From Gemmatimonadaceae bacterium (GTDB lineage: Bacteria; Gemmatimonadota; Gemmatimonadetes; Gemmatimonadales; Gemmatimonadaceae): 64,000 nucleotides of DNA. Below are positions 2,990 through 51,513 of this stretch, piece by piece. Within the stretch, counting starts at the first letter, position 1; each line of letters opens with the position of its first letter. The stretch is from positions 310,001 to 374,000 of the forward strand of contig JAHBVT010000001.1 in assembly GCA_019637355.1 (NCBI GenBank), in the 5' to 3' direction. The notes under the pieces are model-generated. The model searched no databases. It worked only from the letters and a program-made list of their open reading frames with translations, and was not told the DNA's origin. The translations under genes and the position numbers were made by a program.

Positions 2990-5521
2990 ATGTTCGTTGA
3001 GCTCTTGCTCGCCTTTCAGACGGTGGTGGCCACCGGCCCTGCAGCCCCGCCGCGCGAGCGTGCGAAGGATCCGCCGCCCCCGCGCAGCATCCCCGCCCCG
3101 ACTGCCCGCGGCGCCACGGCCGCCCGCGCCGAAGTCCCGCCCGTGCTCGATGGCCTCGACACCGACGAGGTCTGGCGCAGCGCACCGGCCATCACGCAGT
3201 TCCGGCAGTTTGATCCGGTGGAAGACGGTGACCCTCGCTACCGCACCGAGGCTCGCGTCGCCTACGATGCCAAGTACCTCTATGTGTTCGTGCGCGCCTA
3301 TGATCCGGCGCCCGATTCCGTGATGGCCTTCCTCTCGCGCCGCGACGCCCGCACGCAGAGCGACTACATCCACCTGATGGTGGACAGCTACAACGACAAG
3401 CGCACCGGCTTCCGCTTCACCGTCAACCCGATCGGCGTCAAGCGCGACGTCTACATCTCCAACGACGGCAACGAGGACCTCTCCTGGGACGGCGTCTGGG
3501 ATGCCGTGACCAAGGTGGACGAGCAGGGCTGGACGGCGGAGTATCGCATCCCGTTCAGCCAGCTGCGCTTCCCCGAGGCCGAGGCGCACACCTTCGGTTT
3601 CGCCATCTGGCGCGACATCGCGCGGCACAACGAGCGCATCTCGTGGCCGCTGTACCGCCGAACGCAGATGGGTTTCGTCTCGCAGTTCGGCGAGGTGGAC
3701 GGGTTCCGCGGCATCGCGTCGCCGCGCCGCCTCGAGGTGCTGCCGTACTCCGTGACCAGCGACGCACCGCGTCCGACGGCCACCGGCTTCGGCCGCCAGC
3801 AGACCCTCACGCTCGGCGCCGACGTGAAGTACGGCATCACGTCCAACCTGACCCTCGACGCCACCGTGAACCCCGACTTCGGCCAGGTCGAGGCCGACCC
3901 GGCGGTACTGAACCTCGGGGCCTTCGAGCAGTTCTTCGAGGAGCGGCGCCCGTTCTTCCTCGAGGGCGCCGGCATCTTCAACTTCGCCAGCAACCTGTTC
4001 TACTCGCGTCGCGTCGGGCGCGCGCCGCAGCTCGGCGGTACCTACTATCGCGACGACAATCCGCTCAACACCACGATCCTCGGGGCCGCCAAGGTCACCG
4101 GGCGCACCGCGGGCGGATTGAACGTCGGCTTCGTCAATGCCGTGGCCGATCGCGAGCTCGGCGATGCCGGCCGCACGATCGAGCCGCAGACCAACTACGC
4201 CGTGCTGCGCCTCTCGCAGGACCTGCGCAACGGCAACTCCGGCGTCGGCCTGATGGCGACCGCCACGAACCGCTCGCTCGACGATGACACCCGGCGCTTC
4301 CTGCGCGAAGGCGCGTACGCGCTCGGCGTGGACGCCCGTCACCGCTTCGGCCCAAACAACAACTTCCAGGTCTCGGGCTCGGCCGTGGGTTCGCTGGTCA
4401 CCGGCAGCCAAGAGGCGCTGTGGCGCACCCAGCGCAGCGCCGTGCACCAGTTTCAGCGCCCCGACTCGCGCTACGAGGTGGACTCGAGCCTCACGCAGAT
4501 GGCCGGTTCGCGCTTCAACGTGAGCCTCGGGAAGAACGGCGGCGGCATCACCCGCTTCAACACCGGCGTCACGCGGATCAGCGCCGGCTACGAGGTGAAC
4601 GACGCCGGTTTCCAGACCCGTGCCGACATCACGCAGAACGGCAATTGGTTCGGCCTGCAGTTTATGCAGCCCACCAAGCTCTACCGTCGGCTGTTCGTAA
4701 ACTTCAACCAGTGGAACGACTTTACCACCGACGGCTTGCACCTCAACACCGGTGGCAACATCAACATCAACGGTGAACTGCCCAACCAGTGGTGGTTCTG
4801 GACCGGGTTCAACGTCAACGGCATCGGCGAGGTCTACGATGACCGCGTGATGCGCGGCGGCGCCGCGCTGCGGCGCAACCAGCGCGTGAACACGTGGTTC
4901 GGCTTCGAGACCGACCGCCGCAAGTCCGTAGCCTACGTTACCGAACTGTGGGCCGTCTTCAAGGATGTGTCCGGTTCGTACAACTGGGGCGTCGATCCGA
5001 TGCTGCACTTCCGCGCCGGGGGCCGCGTGCAGGGAAGCGTCGCCCTCAACTACTCGGAGTCCGTCAACGACCAGCAGTGGTACAACAATTTCAACACGCC
5101 CGGTGGCGTCGCCTACACTTTCGCGCGGCTTGAGCAGAAGACGGCCGGCGTCACCACGCGTCTCGACTACACGATGACGCCGGCGCTCTCGCTGCAGCTC
5201 TACGCCCAGCCCTTCGTCACGGCCGGCGACTACTCCGACCTCCGCGAGGTCGTCGCCCCGCGCGCGGACCGCTATGAGGACCGCTTCCAGCCCTACACGG
5301 CAGCGGAACCCGACGACTTCAACTTCAAGCAGTTCCGGTCCAACACCGTTCTGCGCTGGGAGTACCGTCCGGGATCGGTGCTGTTCTTCGTCTGGCAGCA
5401 GGGCCGCCAGGACTTCCGGAACCCCGGCAGCTTCGACTTCGGCCGGGATTACGGTGACCTGTTCCGGACACGGTCCGATAACACGTTCCTGATCAAGGCG
5501 AGCTACTGGTTCAGCTTGTAG
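2990..5521 (+). CDS. DUF5916 / CBM9-like outer-membrane protein
   Basis: Secreted or outer-membrane protein of 843 residues. After a short hydrophobic N-terminus (MFVELLLAFQTVVATG) and a Pro-rich linker, residues about 48-215 form a CBM9-like domain (VLDGLDTDEVW; EYRIPFSQLRF). The rest has the DUF5916 pattern, including FEQFFEERRPFFLEGAG near 310 and alternating aromatic/polar strands typical of a beta barrel, ending YWFSL. The family is common in Bacteroidota and Gemmatimonadota; some members sit beside peptidases, but no function is established here. It is monocistronic: a heptad repeat element begins at the last base of its stop codon. Confidence 0.85.
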   Translation: MFVELLLAFQTVVATGPAAPPRERAKDPPPPRSIPAPTARGATAARAEVPPVLDGLDTDEVWRSAPAITQFRQFDPVEDGDPRYRTEARVAYDAKYLYVFVRAYDPAPDSVMAFLSRRDARTQSDYIHLMVDSYNDKRTGFRFTVNPIGVKRDVYISNDGNEDLSWDGVWDAVTKVDEQGWTAEYRIPFSQLRFPEAEAHTFGFAIWRDIARHNERISWPLYRRTQMGFVSQFGEVDGFRGIASPRRLEVLPYSVTSDAPRPTATGFGRQQTLTLGADVKYGITSNLTLDATVNPDFGQVEADPAVLNLGAFEQFFEERRPFFLEGAGIFNFASNLFYSRRVGRAPQLGGTYYRDDNPLNTTILGAAKVTGRTAGGLNVGFVNAVADRELGDAGRTIEPQTNYAVLRLSQDLRNGNSGVGLMATATNRSLDDDTRRFLREGAYALGVDARHRFGPNNNFQVSGSAVGSLVTGSQEALWRTQRSAVHQFQRPDSRYEVDSSLTQMAGSRFNVSLGKNGGGITRFNTGVTRISAGYEVNDAGFQTRADITQNGNWFGLQFMQPTKLYRRLFVNFNQWNDFTTDGLHLNTGGNININGELPNQWWFWTGFNVNGIGEVYDDRVMRGGAALRRNQRVNTWFGFETDRRKSVAYVTELWAVFKDVSGSYNWGVDPMLHFRAGGRVQGSVALNYSESVNDQQWYNNFNTPGGVAYTFARLEQKTAGVTTRLDYTMTPALSLQLYAQPFVTAGDYSDLREVVAPRADRYEDRFQPYTAAEPDDFNFKQFRSNTVLRWEYRPGSVLFFVWQQGRQDFRNPGSFDFGRDYGDLFRTRSDNTFLIKASYWFSL

Positions 5522-5593
5522 GACGGATGACGGAGGACGGAGGACGGAAGACGGAAGGGACCGTCCTCCTTCCGTCTTCAGTCTTCCGTCTTG
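5521..5593. repeat. GACGGAN heptad repeat element with hairpin, copy 1
   Basis: Six tandem heptads of the form GACGGAN in direct orientation, followed by inverted copies (TCCGTCN), so the transcript can fold into a long imperfect hairpin. The first heptad uses the G of the DUF5916 TAG stop. The downstream half carries the variant GACTGAAGACGGAAG, also seen at 28.1 kb and 30.0 kb. The following stretch to 5798 has no convincing gene; it holds a GGGGGG/CCCCCC mini-hairpin near 5690. Confidence 0.8.
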
Positions 5594-48212: not shown

Positions 48213-48653
48213 ATGCGCATCAGACTCGCCGCCACCCTCGCCGGCCTCGCGCTGGCATCCACCGCCTGCGCCAGCTCGTCCTCGACGCCTGCGGCTTCCG
48301 CGCCGGCGCCTGCCGCGGCTCCCGCCGCCGTCGCCCAGCCGGCCCCTGCCGCGGTCAACCCGGTGGGCCGTTGGACCATCGCCCTCACGGCACAAGGGCA
48401 GGCCTTCGACTTCGTGATGGACCTGCGCCACGTCTCCGGCGACGACTACTCGGGCGTCATCTCCAGCCAGGCCTTCCCGCCGATGTCCACCAACTCGGCC
48501 AAGCGCAGCGGCAACTCGATGATCATCAAGGTCACCGCGCCCACGGGGGACGAGGCCACGTTCAACATCATCTTCGAGGGCGACGTCCTCAGCGGCGAAT
48601 GGTCGATGCCGGGGGATGGGTCGCGGGTGAGCGGGAGACGGGTGGCGCAGTAA
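48213..48653 (+). CDS. Small Ala/Pro-linker lipoprotein
   Basis: 146 residues. Lipobox STAC (Cys about 20), then an Ala/Pro-rich linker (about 25-49) and a compact all-beta domain (VGRWTIALTAQGQAFDFVMDL, IIFEGDVLSGEWSMPGDGSRVSGRRV). The GEW-plus-G-x-G end resembles lipocalin-like or DUF-type beta sandwiches. Function unknown. GAGG lies 9 nt before the ATG. The palindromic repeat element starts about 18 nt after its stop. Confidence 0.75.
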   Translation: MRIRLAATLAGLALASTACASSSSTPAASAPAPAAAPAAVAQPAPAAVNPVGRWTIALTAQGQAFDFVMDLRHVSGDDYSGVISSQAFPPMSTNSAKRSGNSMIIKVTAPTGDEATFNIIFEGDVLSGEWSMPGDGSRVSGRRVAQ

Positions 48654-48670
48654 GGTTCGGTCCGGACTGC

Positions 48671-48905
48671 GTTTCACCACAGAGGGCACAGAGGGCACAG
48701 AGGGCACAGAGAACGGCAACTGCGAACTGCTCCTAACGCAGAGGCGCAGAGCTCGCAGAGAACAGCAACTGCTTTTTTAGGGGGCTCGCACCGATAACTC
48801 GGTACGAGCCCCCAAGAATTTGCAGTTGCGGTTGTAGTTCTCTGCGAACTCTGCGCCTCTGCGTTGAACAAGCAGTGCAGTTCTCTGTGCCCTCTGTGGT
48901 GAATA
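48671..48905. repeat. Nested palindromic element of CACAGAGGG / CGCAGAGGC units
   Basis: A 235-nt inverted repeat. Left arm: TTTCACCACAGAGGG, three CACAGAGGG-type units, a GAACTGC spacer, then AACGCAGAGGCGCAGAG. The right arm is the reverse complement with the units reduced to about 80 nt. The core (48780-48813) is itself a hairpin: GGGGGCTCG/CGAGCCCCC and ACCGA/TCGGT round TAAC. Reading frames through it give repeats like LCPLCPLCPL, which are spurious. No gene is present. Outer ends share ACTGC and TTCACCAC; its right end reaches the stop codon of the exporter gene. Confidence 0.85.
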
Positions 48906-48910
48906 GCAGT

Positions 48911-50740
48911 TCAGCCCGTGACGTCGAGCGGAACCACCTCCTCCCCGGGGTTCACGAACAAATCCTGCTCCACCGCGTGCTGCGTGTCGTGCAGGACCTT
49001 GTACCGCCCTCCGAGCGCCATCAGCTCGCGGTGCGACCCGCGCTCGATGATCTGCCCCTCCTCGAGCACGAGGATCTGGTCCGCTGAGCGGATCGTCGAG
49101 AGCCGGTGCGCGATGACGAAGGTCGTGCGTCCGGCGCGCAGTTGGCGCAGGGCCTCGCGGATCTCGCGCTCGCTCTCGGAGTCCAGCGAGCTCGTGGCCT
49201 CGTCGAGGATCAGCACCTGCGGGTCGGCGAGGATGGCGCGGGCGATCGCGACGCGCTGCCGCTGCCCGCCGGAGAGCTTCACGCCGCGCTCGCCGACGAT
49301 GGTCTCGTAGCCGTCGGGGAAGCCCTTCACGAACTCGTCGCAGTTGGCGATGCGCGCCGCCGCGATGATCTCGTCGCGCGTGGCCCCTGGCCGCGAGAAC
49401 GCGATGTTCTCGGCCACCGTGCCGTCGAAGAGGAAGTTGTCCTGCAGCACCACGCCTAGCGTGCTGCGATAGTCGCGCAGGCGGAGCGTGGCGAGGTCCT
49501 GCCCGCCGATCGTGATGCGGCCGCGCAGCGGACGGTTGAACGCCAGGATCAGCGAGATCAACGTGCTCTTGCCCGAGCCGCTGGAGCCCACCAGCGCCGT
49601 GGTCGTGCCGGCCTTGGCGGTGAAGGTGACGTCCTTGAGCACGGGAATGCCCGGACGGTACTCGAACCACACGCCCTCGAACGCGACGTCGCCGTTAGCG
49701 TCGTTCAGCAGATGCCGAGCGCGGTCGTCCTCGTCCTCGGTGGGCGTCTCGAAGATCTCGCGGATGCGGTCGAGGCCGGCGAAGGCCTCCGTGATCTGCG
49801 TGCCGATGTTGGCCATCTGCACCACCGGGAAGCTGACGAGGCCGACGAAGAACACGTAGCTGATGAGGTCGCCGAGCGTCATCTGGCCCGCGGCCACCGC
49901 GCGGCCGCCGACGACGAGGATCAGCACGCCCACCGCACCGATGATCACCGTCGCCATCGCGCCGACGGCGCTGGTGCCGGTGATGGTGCTGGCGATGTTC
50001 CGGAACAGCCGATGTGCGCCGCGCGTGAAGACGATCTCCTCGCGCTTTTCGGCGGTGTACACCTTCACCACGCGCGCGCCGCCCATCGCCTGGCCGAGCC
50101 GTCCGCTGACCTCGGCCTGGATCTTGGAACGCTCGCGGAAGATCGGCCGCAGCTTCACGAAGGCGTAGGCCATCACGCCGCCGAACACCGCCAGGAACAC
50201 CAGCGTGACGACGGTGAGGAACCAGTTGAGATAGAACAGGTAGCCCAGCGCCAGCGAGGCCGTGAGCATCCCGCCCACCAGTTGGATGATGCCCGTGCCG
50301 ATGAGGTTGCGGATGCCTTCGGCGTCGTTCATCACGCGGTTGATGAGGATGCCGCTCTGCGTCGCGTCGAAGAAGCTCACCGGGAGGCGCAGCACACGCG
50401 CCTGCACCTTGCGGCGCAGTTCGGTGATGGCGCGCTGGGCGGCCACCGAGATCACCTGCGAGAGCGCGAAGGAGCTCGAGGCTTGCAGCAGCGTGGCCAC
50501 GCCGGCGGCGACGGCGATCGGCGTGAGCAGCTCGATGCGTCCCTTGCCGAGCACCTCGTCGACGATCCACTTCACGCTGCCGGGGAGGACGAGGCCCGAG
50601 AGGCGATTGACGAGCATCAACACGAGGCCGATGCCGAGGGCGCCGCGGTGCTGCCACATCAGGCGCCGGGTCTCGGCCCAGGCGGCCTTGTAGTTGGTGG
50701 GCTTCTTCTCTGGCTTGGCGGGCTGGGTTGGTGCGGTCAC
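48911..50740 (-). CDS. ABC exporter, MsbA/MDR-like half transporter
   Basis: 609 residues from GTG 50740. Six-helix ABC membrane domain (about 30-330), then the ATPase: Walker A GSSGSGKST near 400, Q-loop VLQDNFLFD, signature LSGGQ, Walker B VLILDEATSSLDS, H-loop IAHRLSTI. Works as a homodimer, exporting lipid or drug-like substrates; MsbA-like lipid A export is possible but not shown. GTGA overlap with the downstream GDPD gene. Confidence 0.93.
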   Translation of the reverse strand: MTAPTQPAKPEKKPTNYKAAWAETRRLMWQHRGALGIGLVLMLVNRLSGLVLPGSVKWIVDEVLGKGRIELLTPIAVAAGVATLLQASSSFALSQVISVAAQRAITELRRKVQARVLRLPVSFFDATQSGILINRVMNDAEGIRNLIGTGIIQLVGGMLTASLALGYLFYLNWFLTVVTLVFLAVFGGVMAYAFVKLRPIFRERSKIQAEVSGRLGQAMGGARVVKVYTAEKREEIVFTRGAHRLFRNIASTITGTSAVGAMATVIIGAVGVLILVVGGRAVAAGQMTLGDLISYVFFVGLVSFPVVQMANIGTQITEAFAGLDRIREIFETPTEDEDDRARHLLNDANGDVAFEGVWFEYRPGIPVLKDVTFTAKAGTTTALVGSSGSGKSTLISLILAFNRPLRGRITIGGQDLATLRLRDYRSTLGVVLQDNFLFDGTVAENIAFSRPGATRDEIIAAARIANCDEFVKGFPDGYETIVGERGVKLSGGQRQRVAIARAILADPQVLILDEATSSLDSESEREIREALRQLRAGRTTFVIAHRLSTIRSADQILVLEEGQIIERGSHRELMALGGRYKVLHDTQHAVEQDLFVNPGEEVVPLDVTG

Positions 50741-51513
50741 CGAAGGGTCTCGCGGATCCGGAGCATCGGCTCCGGGTCGTCGGTAATGATGCCGTTGATG
50801 CCAGCGCGCCACAGGCCTGCGGCGCGGGCAGGGTCATTGATGGTCCAGACGTGCGTCGGGCCGCCGGCGGCGCGCATCATCTGCGCAAAGCGCTCGACGG
50901 GCAGGGGGATGATGCGGTGGAACGGCGGGATGCAGAGCGCTTGGTACGGGAGGCGCGTGGGCCGCGCACCGGCAAGGGCCGGAAGGTACTGCCTCGTGAG
51001 CGTGCCGGAGCCGGGGCTGACCGGCACGCCCGCCTCCTGAAAAGGAATCAGCGCCTCGTCCAGAAAGCTCCCGACGAGCACGCGGTGCAGGTTCTGCGTC
51101 TCGCGGAGGACGGCGAGGGCAGGGCGGGCGACCTCCACCGACTTCATCTCGATGATCAGCGGCAGGTCGGGGATGGCCGCCAGCGCCTCGCGCAACGAGG
51201 GGACGGGCTCGGGACGGTCGCGGAAGGCAAAGCTGCGTCCGCCGTCCGTACTGAACCGGTACGCGGCGTTGACCTGCGCCAACTCGGCGCTGCTGCGCTC
51301 GCGGATGGGGCCCCGGGCGTCGGTGGTGCGGTCCAGGGTGGGGTCGTGGTGCAGCACCGGTTCGCCGTCGCGGGCGAGGTGCAGGTCGAATTCCAGCGCA
51401 TCCACGCCGAGCGCTGCCGCGTGGCGCAGCGAGGCGAGGGTGTTCTCGGGCCGCACGGCGCGGGCGCCGCGGTGGCCGATGACGAGGCGGCGCGAGGGGT
51501 CGAGCAGGAGCAC
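50737..51513 (-). CDS. Glycerophosphodiester phosphodiesterase
   Basis: 258 residues, GDPD TIM barrel, no signal peptide, so cytosolic (UgpQ-like). Catalytic IGHRGARAVRPENT at 12-25, EFDLHLARDGEPVLHHDPTLDRTT (Glu, Asp, His) near 40-63, IIEMKS near 120, and C-terminal TINDPARAAGLWRAGINGIITDDP. Cleaves glycerophosphodiesters to glycerol 3-phosphate and alcohol. GTGA overlap with the ABC exporter gene downstream in transcription suggests linked lipid turnover and export. Confidence 0.95.
   Translation of the reverse strand: MLLLDPSRRLVIGHRGARAVRPENTLASLRHAAALGVDALEFDLHLARDGEPVLHHDPTLDRTTDARGPIRERSSAELAQVNAAYRFSTDGGRSFAFRDRPEPVPSLREALAAIPDLPLIIEMKSVEVARPALAVLRETQNLHRVLVGSFLDEALIPFQEAGVPVSPGSGTLTRQYLPALAGARPTRLPYQALCIPPFHRIIPLPVERFAQMMRAAGGPTHVWTINDPARAAGLWRAGINGIITDDPEPMLRIRETLR

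Follow-up and report, generated by a model that had tools for sequence, protein, structure and literature searches.

Dispersed hairpin-forming palindromes in a Gemmatimonadaceae genome share their ends with an element encoding a predicted GxxExxY nuclease

The window, a stretch of 64,000 nucleotides from a Gemmatimonadaceae bacterium, contains a nested, hairpin-forming palindrome of about 250 bp located between two convergent genes. We propose, with a probability of roughly 0.6, that it belongs, as a non-autonomous element, to a dispersed family of mobile inverted repeats, and that the coding member of this family carries a GxxExxY gene in its loop. The best reading of the data is that the non-autonomous palindromes are dispersed or maintained in trans by the GxxExxY protein: the association between the two is directly visible in many genomes, and mobilisation of one by the other is what this association suggests.

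Results

Architecture of the window palindrome

The features of the element and of its two neighbours are as follows.

48665..48912, no strand: whole palindromic element, ACTGC...GCAGTT tips included; bounds from comparison with other copies and with the GxxExxY copy
48678..48713, + strand: left outer arm, three CACAGAGGG units and CACAGAGAA, 9-bp period
48735..48772, + strand: left inner arm, CGCAGAGGCGCAGAGCTCGCAGAG; optional module, missing in six other copies
48780..48813, no strand: core hairpin, GGGGGCTCGCACCGA-TAAC-TCGGTACGAGCCCCC; covaries among copies
48828..48865, - strand: right inner arm
48876..48911, - strand: right outer arm and tip (CTCTGTGCCCTCTGTGGTGAATAGCAGTT); inside the 42-bp identity with the GxxExxY-carrying copy
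48883-48903: CTCTGTGCCCTCTGTGGTGAA of the right outer arm
48213..48653, + strand: upstream neighbour, a lipoprotein-like ORF; stop codon 48651-48653, start inferred; orthologues at the matching site in relatives
48911..50812, - strand: convergent downstream neighbour, an ABC exporter; stop codon TCA at 48911-48913; orthologues in 15 of the 17 genomes of the genus

A nested palindrome had been reported here by the first-pass annotation, and the sequence bears it out: folded as single-stranded DNA, the element reaches -98.8 kcal/mol, compared with -40.9 ± 3.7 kcal/mol for dinucleotide shuffles (z = -15.7), which is far above chance. Its ends are slightly wider than first stated (about 48665-48912) because the ACTGC/GCAGTT tips are also inverted. 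From the outside in, the element consists of these tips, outer arms made of CACAGAGGG units, AACTGC-like spacers, CGCAGAG inner arms, and the core, the inverted arms being formed by C[A/G]C-purine-rich units of 8-9 bp. A 16-nt outer unit has four matches in the window, all inside the element, for 0.02 expected. The inner arms (CGCAGAGGCGCAGAG..; 48735-48772 and 48828-48865) are 38 nt long and 89% complementary. The second hairpin, which had been described as perfect, is present but only near-perfect: its halves (48780-48794 and 48799-48813) pair at 14 of 15 positions, with one C-A mismatch, around a TAAC loop. On the right, the element does extend to the exporter gene, as first noted, and overlaps its stop codon; it occupies the gap between the two convergent genes.

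Dispersed copies in the genome

Far from being single-copy with no similar sites, the window element gave 81 matches in its own genome (3.15 Mb), corresponding to about 27 dispersed loci, and tens of copies were found in several relatives. Nearly all copies have TTCACCACAGAGGGCACAGAG...CTCTGTGCCCTCTGTGGTGAA in common, and the outer CACAGAG arms, the AACTGC spacers, and a core hairpin that covaries recur across the family. A GGGG...CCCC core is recognisable in 21 of the 24 tabulated copies. The CGCAGAG inner arms are wholly missing from six of the tabulated copies, and the inner pair is therefore an optional module. According to rough gene calls, the distance from the upstream stop codon to the start of the element is at most about 12 bp in most cases. 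In its terminal inverted repeats and its multiple non-coding copies, the family resembles MITEs.

Comparison of 17 cores revealed that 95% of the stem pairs are kept and that both partners vary at 5 of the 14 pairs. The number of cells changed on both sides is 14, for 6.3 in shuffles, and none of 500 shuffles reaches 14. Selection for pairing and hairpin-templated copying would both give this covariation, either one being sufficient.

A second dispersed palindrome family, with GACGGAAGA / GACGGAGGAC units and inverted arms about 23 nt long, was observed at window positions 5521-5590, at C1:1446790-1446851 (L018, 3591-3652), at C1:1585566-1585641, and at C1:1014561, as well as in two relatives (G010 and G016). 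Its plan is like that of the main family and its unit sequence is different.

A coding copy carrying a GxxExxY gene

One copy (C1:2757028-2757537), outside the window and about 2.4 Mb from the window element, has an intact GxxExxY open reading frame in place of the hairpin loop. The left arm of this copy is that of the window element up to AACGGCAACTGCTCTTGGGGG and its right end is the same from CCCCCCAAAGCGG. The right ends of the two elements are identical over 42 bp (query 227-268, 100%), and a GGGGG/CCCCC stem base flanks the gene. The product matches TIGR04256 'GxxExxY protein' (E 3.6e-40) and PF13366 PDDEXK_3 (E 3e-39), and the gene is the sole GxxExxY gene of this genome. The ends of the window element are shared with an element whose product is a predicted nuclease and not a known transposase.

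In 52 GxxExxY proteins, D64, E74, and K76, the predicted catalytic residues, are invariant, as are the GxxExxY motif (G21, E24, Y27), H15, H85, and Q88. The structure model of the protein is confident (pLDDT 95) and its top structural match is Cas4 SSO0001 (VIA Z 10.0, 100 residues, rmsd 4.3), ahead of Hjc, a Holliday-junction resolvase of archaea (Z 7.0), and of further PD-(D/E)XK nucleases; the Foldseek E-values of the model are weak, 3e-3 at best. A sequence search of solved structures returned none at E <= 1, and a PHROG search gave no match. Both the D and (D/E)xK residues and the restriction-endonuclease-like fold that characterise PD-(D/E)XK members are present in the model, and GxxExxY is predicted to be a small PD-(D/E)XK nuclease of Cas4/RecB-like fold. 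The likeness to Cas4/RecB nucleases (e.g. SSO0001, PDB 4ic1) lies in the predicted fold and in D..ExK, and the Q88..Y92 spacing resembles the QxxxY motif of that family. In contrast to those enzymes, GxxExxY has about 120 aa and is found in palindromes rather than in CRISPR adaptation or recombination operons.

Two other assignments for GxxExxY were considered and set aside, namely a defence system (no PADLOC match) and phage or plasmid cargo (0 matches in 50,697 phage records and 8 in 72,556 plasmid records). Plasmids are otherwise nearly devoid of GxxExxY, yet a single megaplasmid, the Gemmatirosa kalamazoonensis replicon NZ_CP007129.1, has three GxxExxY places.

The arms form read-through N-terminal extensions of the GxxExxY open frames. 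At three loci (L143, L160, and L165), the frame extends into the upstream arm, with N-terminal peptides such as HRDTE or TEHTESTE, and annotated GxxExxY start codons inside arms may be wrong.

Association of palindromes with GxxExxY genes

Seven of the 17 genomes of the genus have a GxxExxY gene, one each, and six of these genes are tightly enclosed by inverted arrays; the left array matches the right one, and the arrays differ between genomes. The arm units are CACGAAG in G016, CACGGAG in G002 and G005, CACAGAG in G000 and G007, and mixed in G010, while the locus of G013 shows no clear arms. As a control, we looked at the genes of the four-helix-bundle protein TIGR02436 in the genus, none of which (0/21) lies between such arms (p 2e-5 against 6/7, calculated by hand); this protein was accordingly rejected as a partner of the palindromes. 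The pattern CCACRRAGN{1,2}CACRRAG occurs 37-129 times per genome in six genomes of the genus and no more than twice (0-2) in any of the remaining eleven; the six rich genomes coincide exactly with the set that has an arm-flanked GxxExxY gene.

The association extends to the phylum, where, among 298 genomes, GxxExxY was detected in 28 of the 32 palindrome-rich genomes (at least 8 pattern hits) and in 68 of the 266 others (Fisher p 9e-12, a value that is only indicative because the genomes are related). The palindrome-rich genomes of the phylum with no detectable GxxExxY are G063, G184, G224, and G250; in the genus, G009 (92% complete) has CACCGAG / CACCGAGG-type palindromes (L108 and L036) and no detectable GxxExxY. 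Gene loss or assembly gaps may account for these five cases.

Palindromes built on CACAGAG, CACGAAG, CACGGAG, or CGCAAAG units are present in the intergenic DNA of many environmental bacteria. We collected 80 GxxExxY loci from GTDB, with one genome per species, from many phyla and including two archaeal loci (L176 and L202), and scored the inverted repeats between the upstream and downstream flanks, with a threshold of 14 or more. This score was reached for 51 of 78 genes and for none of 68 when flanks more than 1 kb away were used; mismatched flank pairs from these loci reached it in 10.7% of cases, a rate raised by the ACC-C(A/G)C-purine plan that is common to the arms of different loci. About a third of the GTDB-wide loci have no clear arms. 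At least 8 dispersed pattern hits were found in 24 of 40 genomes behind these loci, and in 1 with the reversed control pattern.

Unit period follows the GxxExxY protein

The arrays have a unit period of either 8 or 9 bp. Judging by the fraction of 8-bp-type hits, G000 (0/51) and G007 (1/57) are 9-bp genomes, whereas G002 (76/78), G005 (129/129), G010 (35/37), and G016 (88/90) are 8-bp genomes. In the species tree, G000 groups with G002 and G016, whereas its GxxExxY protein groups with those of G007 and G013, and the genes of these three genomes occupy a common locus beside the dihydrolipoamide dehydrogenase gene; in the 8-bp genomes, GxxExxY is at a second common locus. The unit period therefore follows the protein and not the species. 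At a larger scale, the period beside the gene predicts the one seen in the scattered copies (Spearman 0.70, p 1.8e-5, n = 30 loci), and on a poorly resolved tree of 69 GxxExxY proteins the period needs 13 changes compared with 23 after shuffling (0/500 shuffles, also with shuffling within phyla).

Filled and empty sites

The gap between sucD and ndk is 35-62 bp long and free of palindromes in nine genomes of the genus, and it holds a palindrome in six. In each case the arms match each other: they are made of CACAGAGGG in G000, CACAGAGG in G016 and G002, CACGGAGA in G005, CACGAAGG in G010, and CACCGAGG in G009. Since G009 branches outside the clade that the five remaining filled genomes form, at least two independent insertions in this gap are the simplest reading. 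The gap orthologous to the window site likewise has a CACGAAGG palindrome in G016 and is empty in G005 and others. Empty sites, which the first-pass annotation had proposed to look for along with duplicated flanks, thus exist in relatives, and together with the dispersed copies they support its suggestion of a non-autonomous mobile element. No clear target-site duplication was evident between filled and empty sites, in relatives about 80-88% identical for which the boundaries are uncertain. The unit sequence of a given site varies from one relative to another, which either local change or re-insertion could explain.

Two arrangements at particular sites were also observed. At the exporter site of G010 (L124), a tandem array of CGCGCGCGGATCCAAGCCGACTGAC-like units adjoins the exporter gene. 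On three contigs of G002 (C52, C69, and C247), CACGAAGG arms are found outside CACAGAGG/CACGGAGG arms at one place, apparently through insertion of one palindrome type into the other or through stacking of the two; the window copy, with its nested CACAGAG and CGCAGAG arms, has a similar design.

Discussion

In the mechanism that we propose, GxxExxY would recognise arrays of 8-9-bp units, probably as hairpin arms extruded in single-stranded DNA, and would cut at them. Replication or repair could then place copies of the hairpin at other intergenic positions, and hairpin-templated correction or gene conversion would keep both arms alike. The window element would be one such trans-mobilised copy, which landed between two convergent genes. 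We give even odds to the broader claim that GxxExxY is a palindrome dispersal system across Bacteria and also in Archaea, in which a lone nuclease, with no known transposase, recognises the unit arrays and both spreads and homogenises non-coding copies in trans while its specificity co-evolves with their unit and period.

A variant of this explanation differs in the copying step. GxxExxY could be a homing endonuclease acting on lookalike sites, so that palindromes would spread from existing ones by double-strand-break repair, mainly through gene conversion and not transposition. The predicted PD-(D/E)XK fold would suit such an enzyme, no target-site duplication was seen, and arms at orthologous sites differ in their units yet match each other, as they would under gene conversion. 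We nevertheless regard this variant as possible but unlikely, given that the empty sites have no visible unit array to cut and that non-coding copies exceed the coding one about 26 to 1. The present data cannot separate transposition from homing-type repair.

Passenger genes are known in MITE-like elements in general, and GxxExxY could be a passenger or accessory gene in the loop of palindromes that are moved by another transposase. That it has no known nuclease activity and that some palindrome-rich genomes are devoid of it would fit this idea. However, GxxExxY is what the arms enclose in many phyla, and their unit sequences vary; the unit period tracks both the GxxExxY tree and the copies of the genome; and the genus has no Y1 transposase, all of which makes a passenger role improbable. 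The elements resemble MITEs in being short, intergenic, multi-copy, and non-coding, with terminal inverted repeats and a coding relative with matching ends; they differ from MITEs by the lack of a transposase of known family and of a clear target-site duplication, and by arms made of tandem short units of variable sequence and period.

Alternatively, the palindromes could belong to the host and serve a structural or RNA function at the ends of genes (protection of mRNA 3' ends, a barrier to transcription, or folding of the chromosome), with GxxExxY as a host nuclease that processes them. The position of most copies close to a stop codon and the covariation of the core agree with this view. It is nevertheless very doubtful: within a single genus the palindromes are distributed patchily and most relatives have empty sites, the palindromes belong to no Rfam family, and the core has no U-tract terminator. 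On this last point the first-pass annotation was right to place the A/T run on the wrong side for a terminator. The T run precedes the core stem and a terminator scan had no match at the core, the single terminator-like match in the element being weak and in the right arm, so an intrinsic terminator was rejected. A structured RNA of known family was also rejected, as an Rfam search of the window at the gathering threshold returned two tRNAs only and nothing for the palindrome. The covariation of the core would suit a structured RNA, the other suggestion of the first-pass annotation, but the GxxExxY link and the lack of an Rfam match make a DNA element more likely.

Intervening sequences of 23S rRNA that contain the four-helix-bundle ORF (TIGR02436) are another case of a gene in the loop of an inverted-repeat element. 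The present elements share this arrangement, but they are not in rRNA, and the TIGR02436 genes of the genus are not in such palindromes. The closest analogue in behaviour is the REPIN-RAYT system, in which a vertically inherited transposase, present as a single copy, replicates non-autonomous hairpin elements (PMC8049555) and REPs occur in the DNA flanking RAYT genes (PMC3116915). Both systems combine dispersed extragenic hairpin palindromes with one gene per genome flanked by matching repeats; in both, the repeats are commoner in genomes that hold the gene, the gene is retained vertically at fixed loci, and the repeat sequence varies from species to species. They differ in the enzyme, GxxExxY being a predicted PD-(D/E)XK Cas4/RecB-like nuclease and not a Y1/HUH protein, and in the repeats, which here are tandem units of 8-9 bp that form inverted arms of 25-40 nt, nested in some copies. 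No Y1 (HUH) RAYT gene (PF01797) was detected in any of the 17 genomes of the genus, the control genomes being positive, and the palindromes are therefore not members of the REPIN-RAYT family.

In the open-access literature, we found no paper linking GxxExxY or CACAGAG-type units to mobile palindromes. The exact unit strings match unrelated primers only, PF13366 appears in an unrelated context, one paper names GxxExxY in passing beside a reverse transcriptase, and the name also occurs in a paper on an algal virus genome. The placing of GxxExxY genes between matching inverted repeats in many bacteria and some archaea suggests a family of spreading DNA palindromes for which that literature has no description.

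If GxxExxY is tied to these palindromes, a protein family that has only an uncharacterised name (TIGR04256/PF13366) would acquire a substrate; the biochemical prediction is that every GxxExxY protein acts on its cognate unit arrays. If true, REPIN-RAYT would be joined by a second, independent example of an enzyme that is kept vertically together with an intragenomic population of palindromes.
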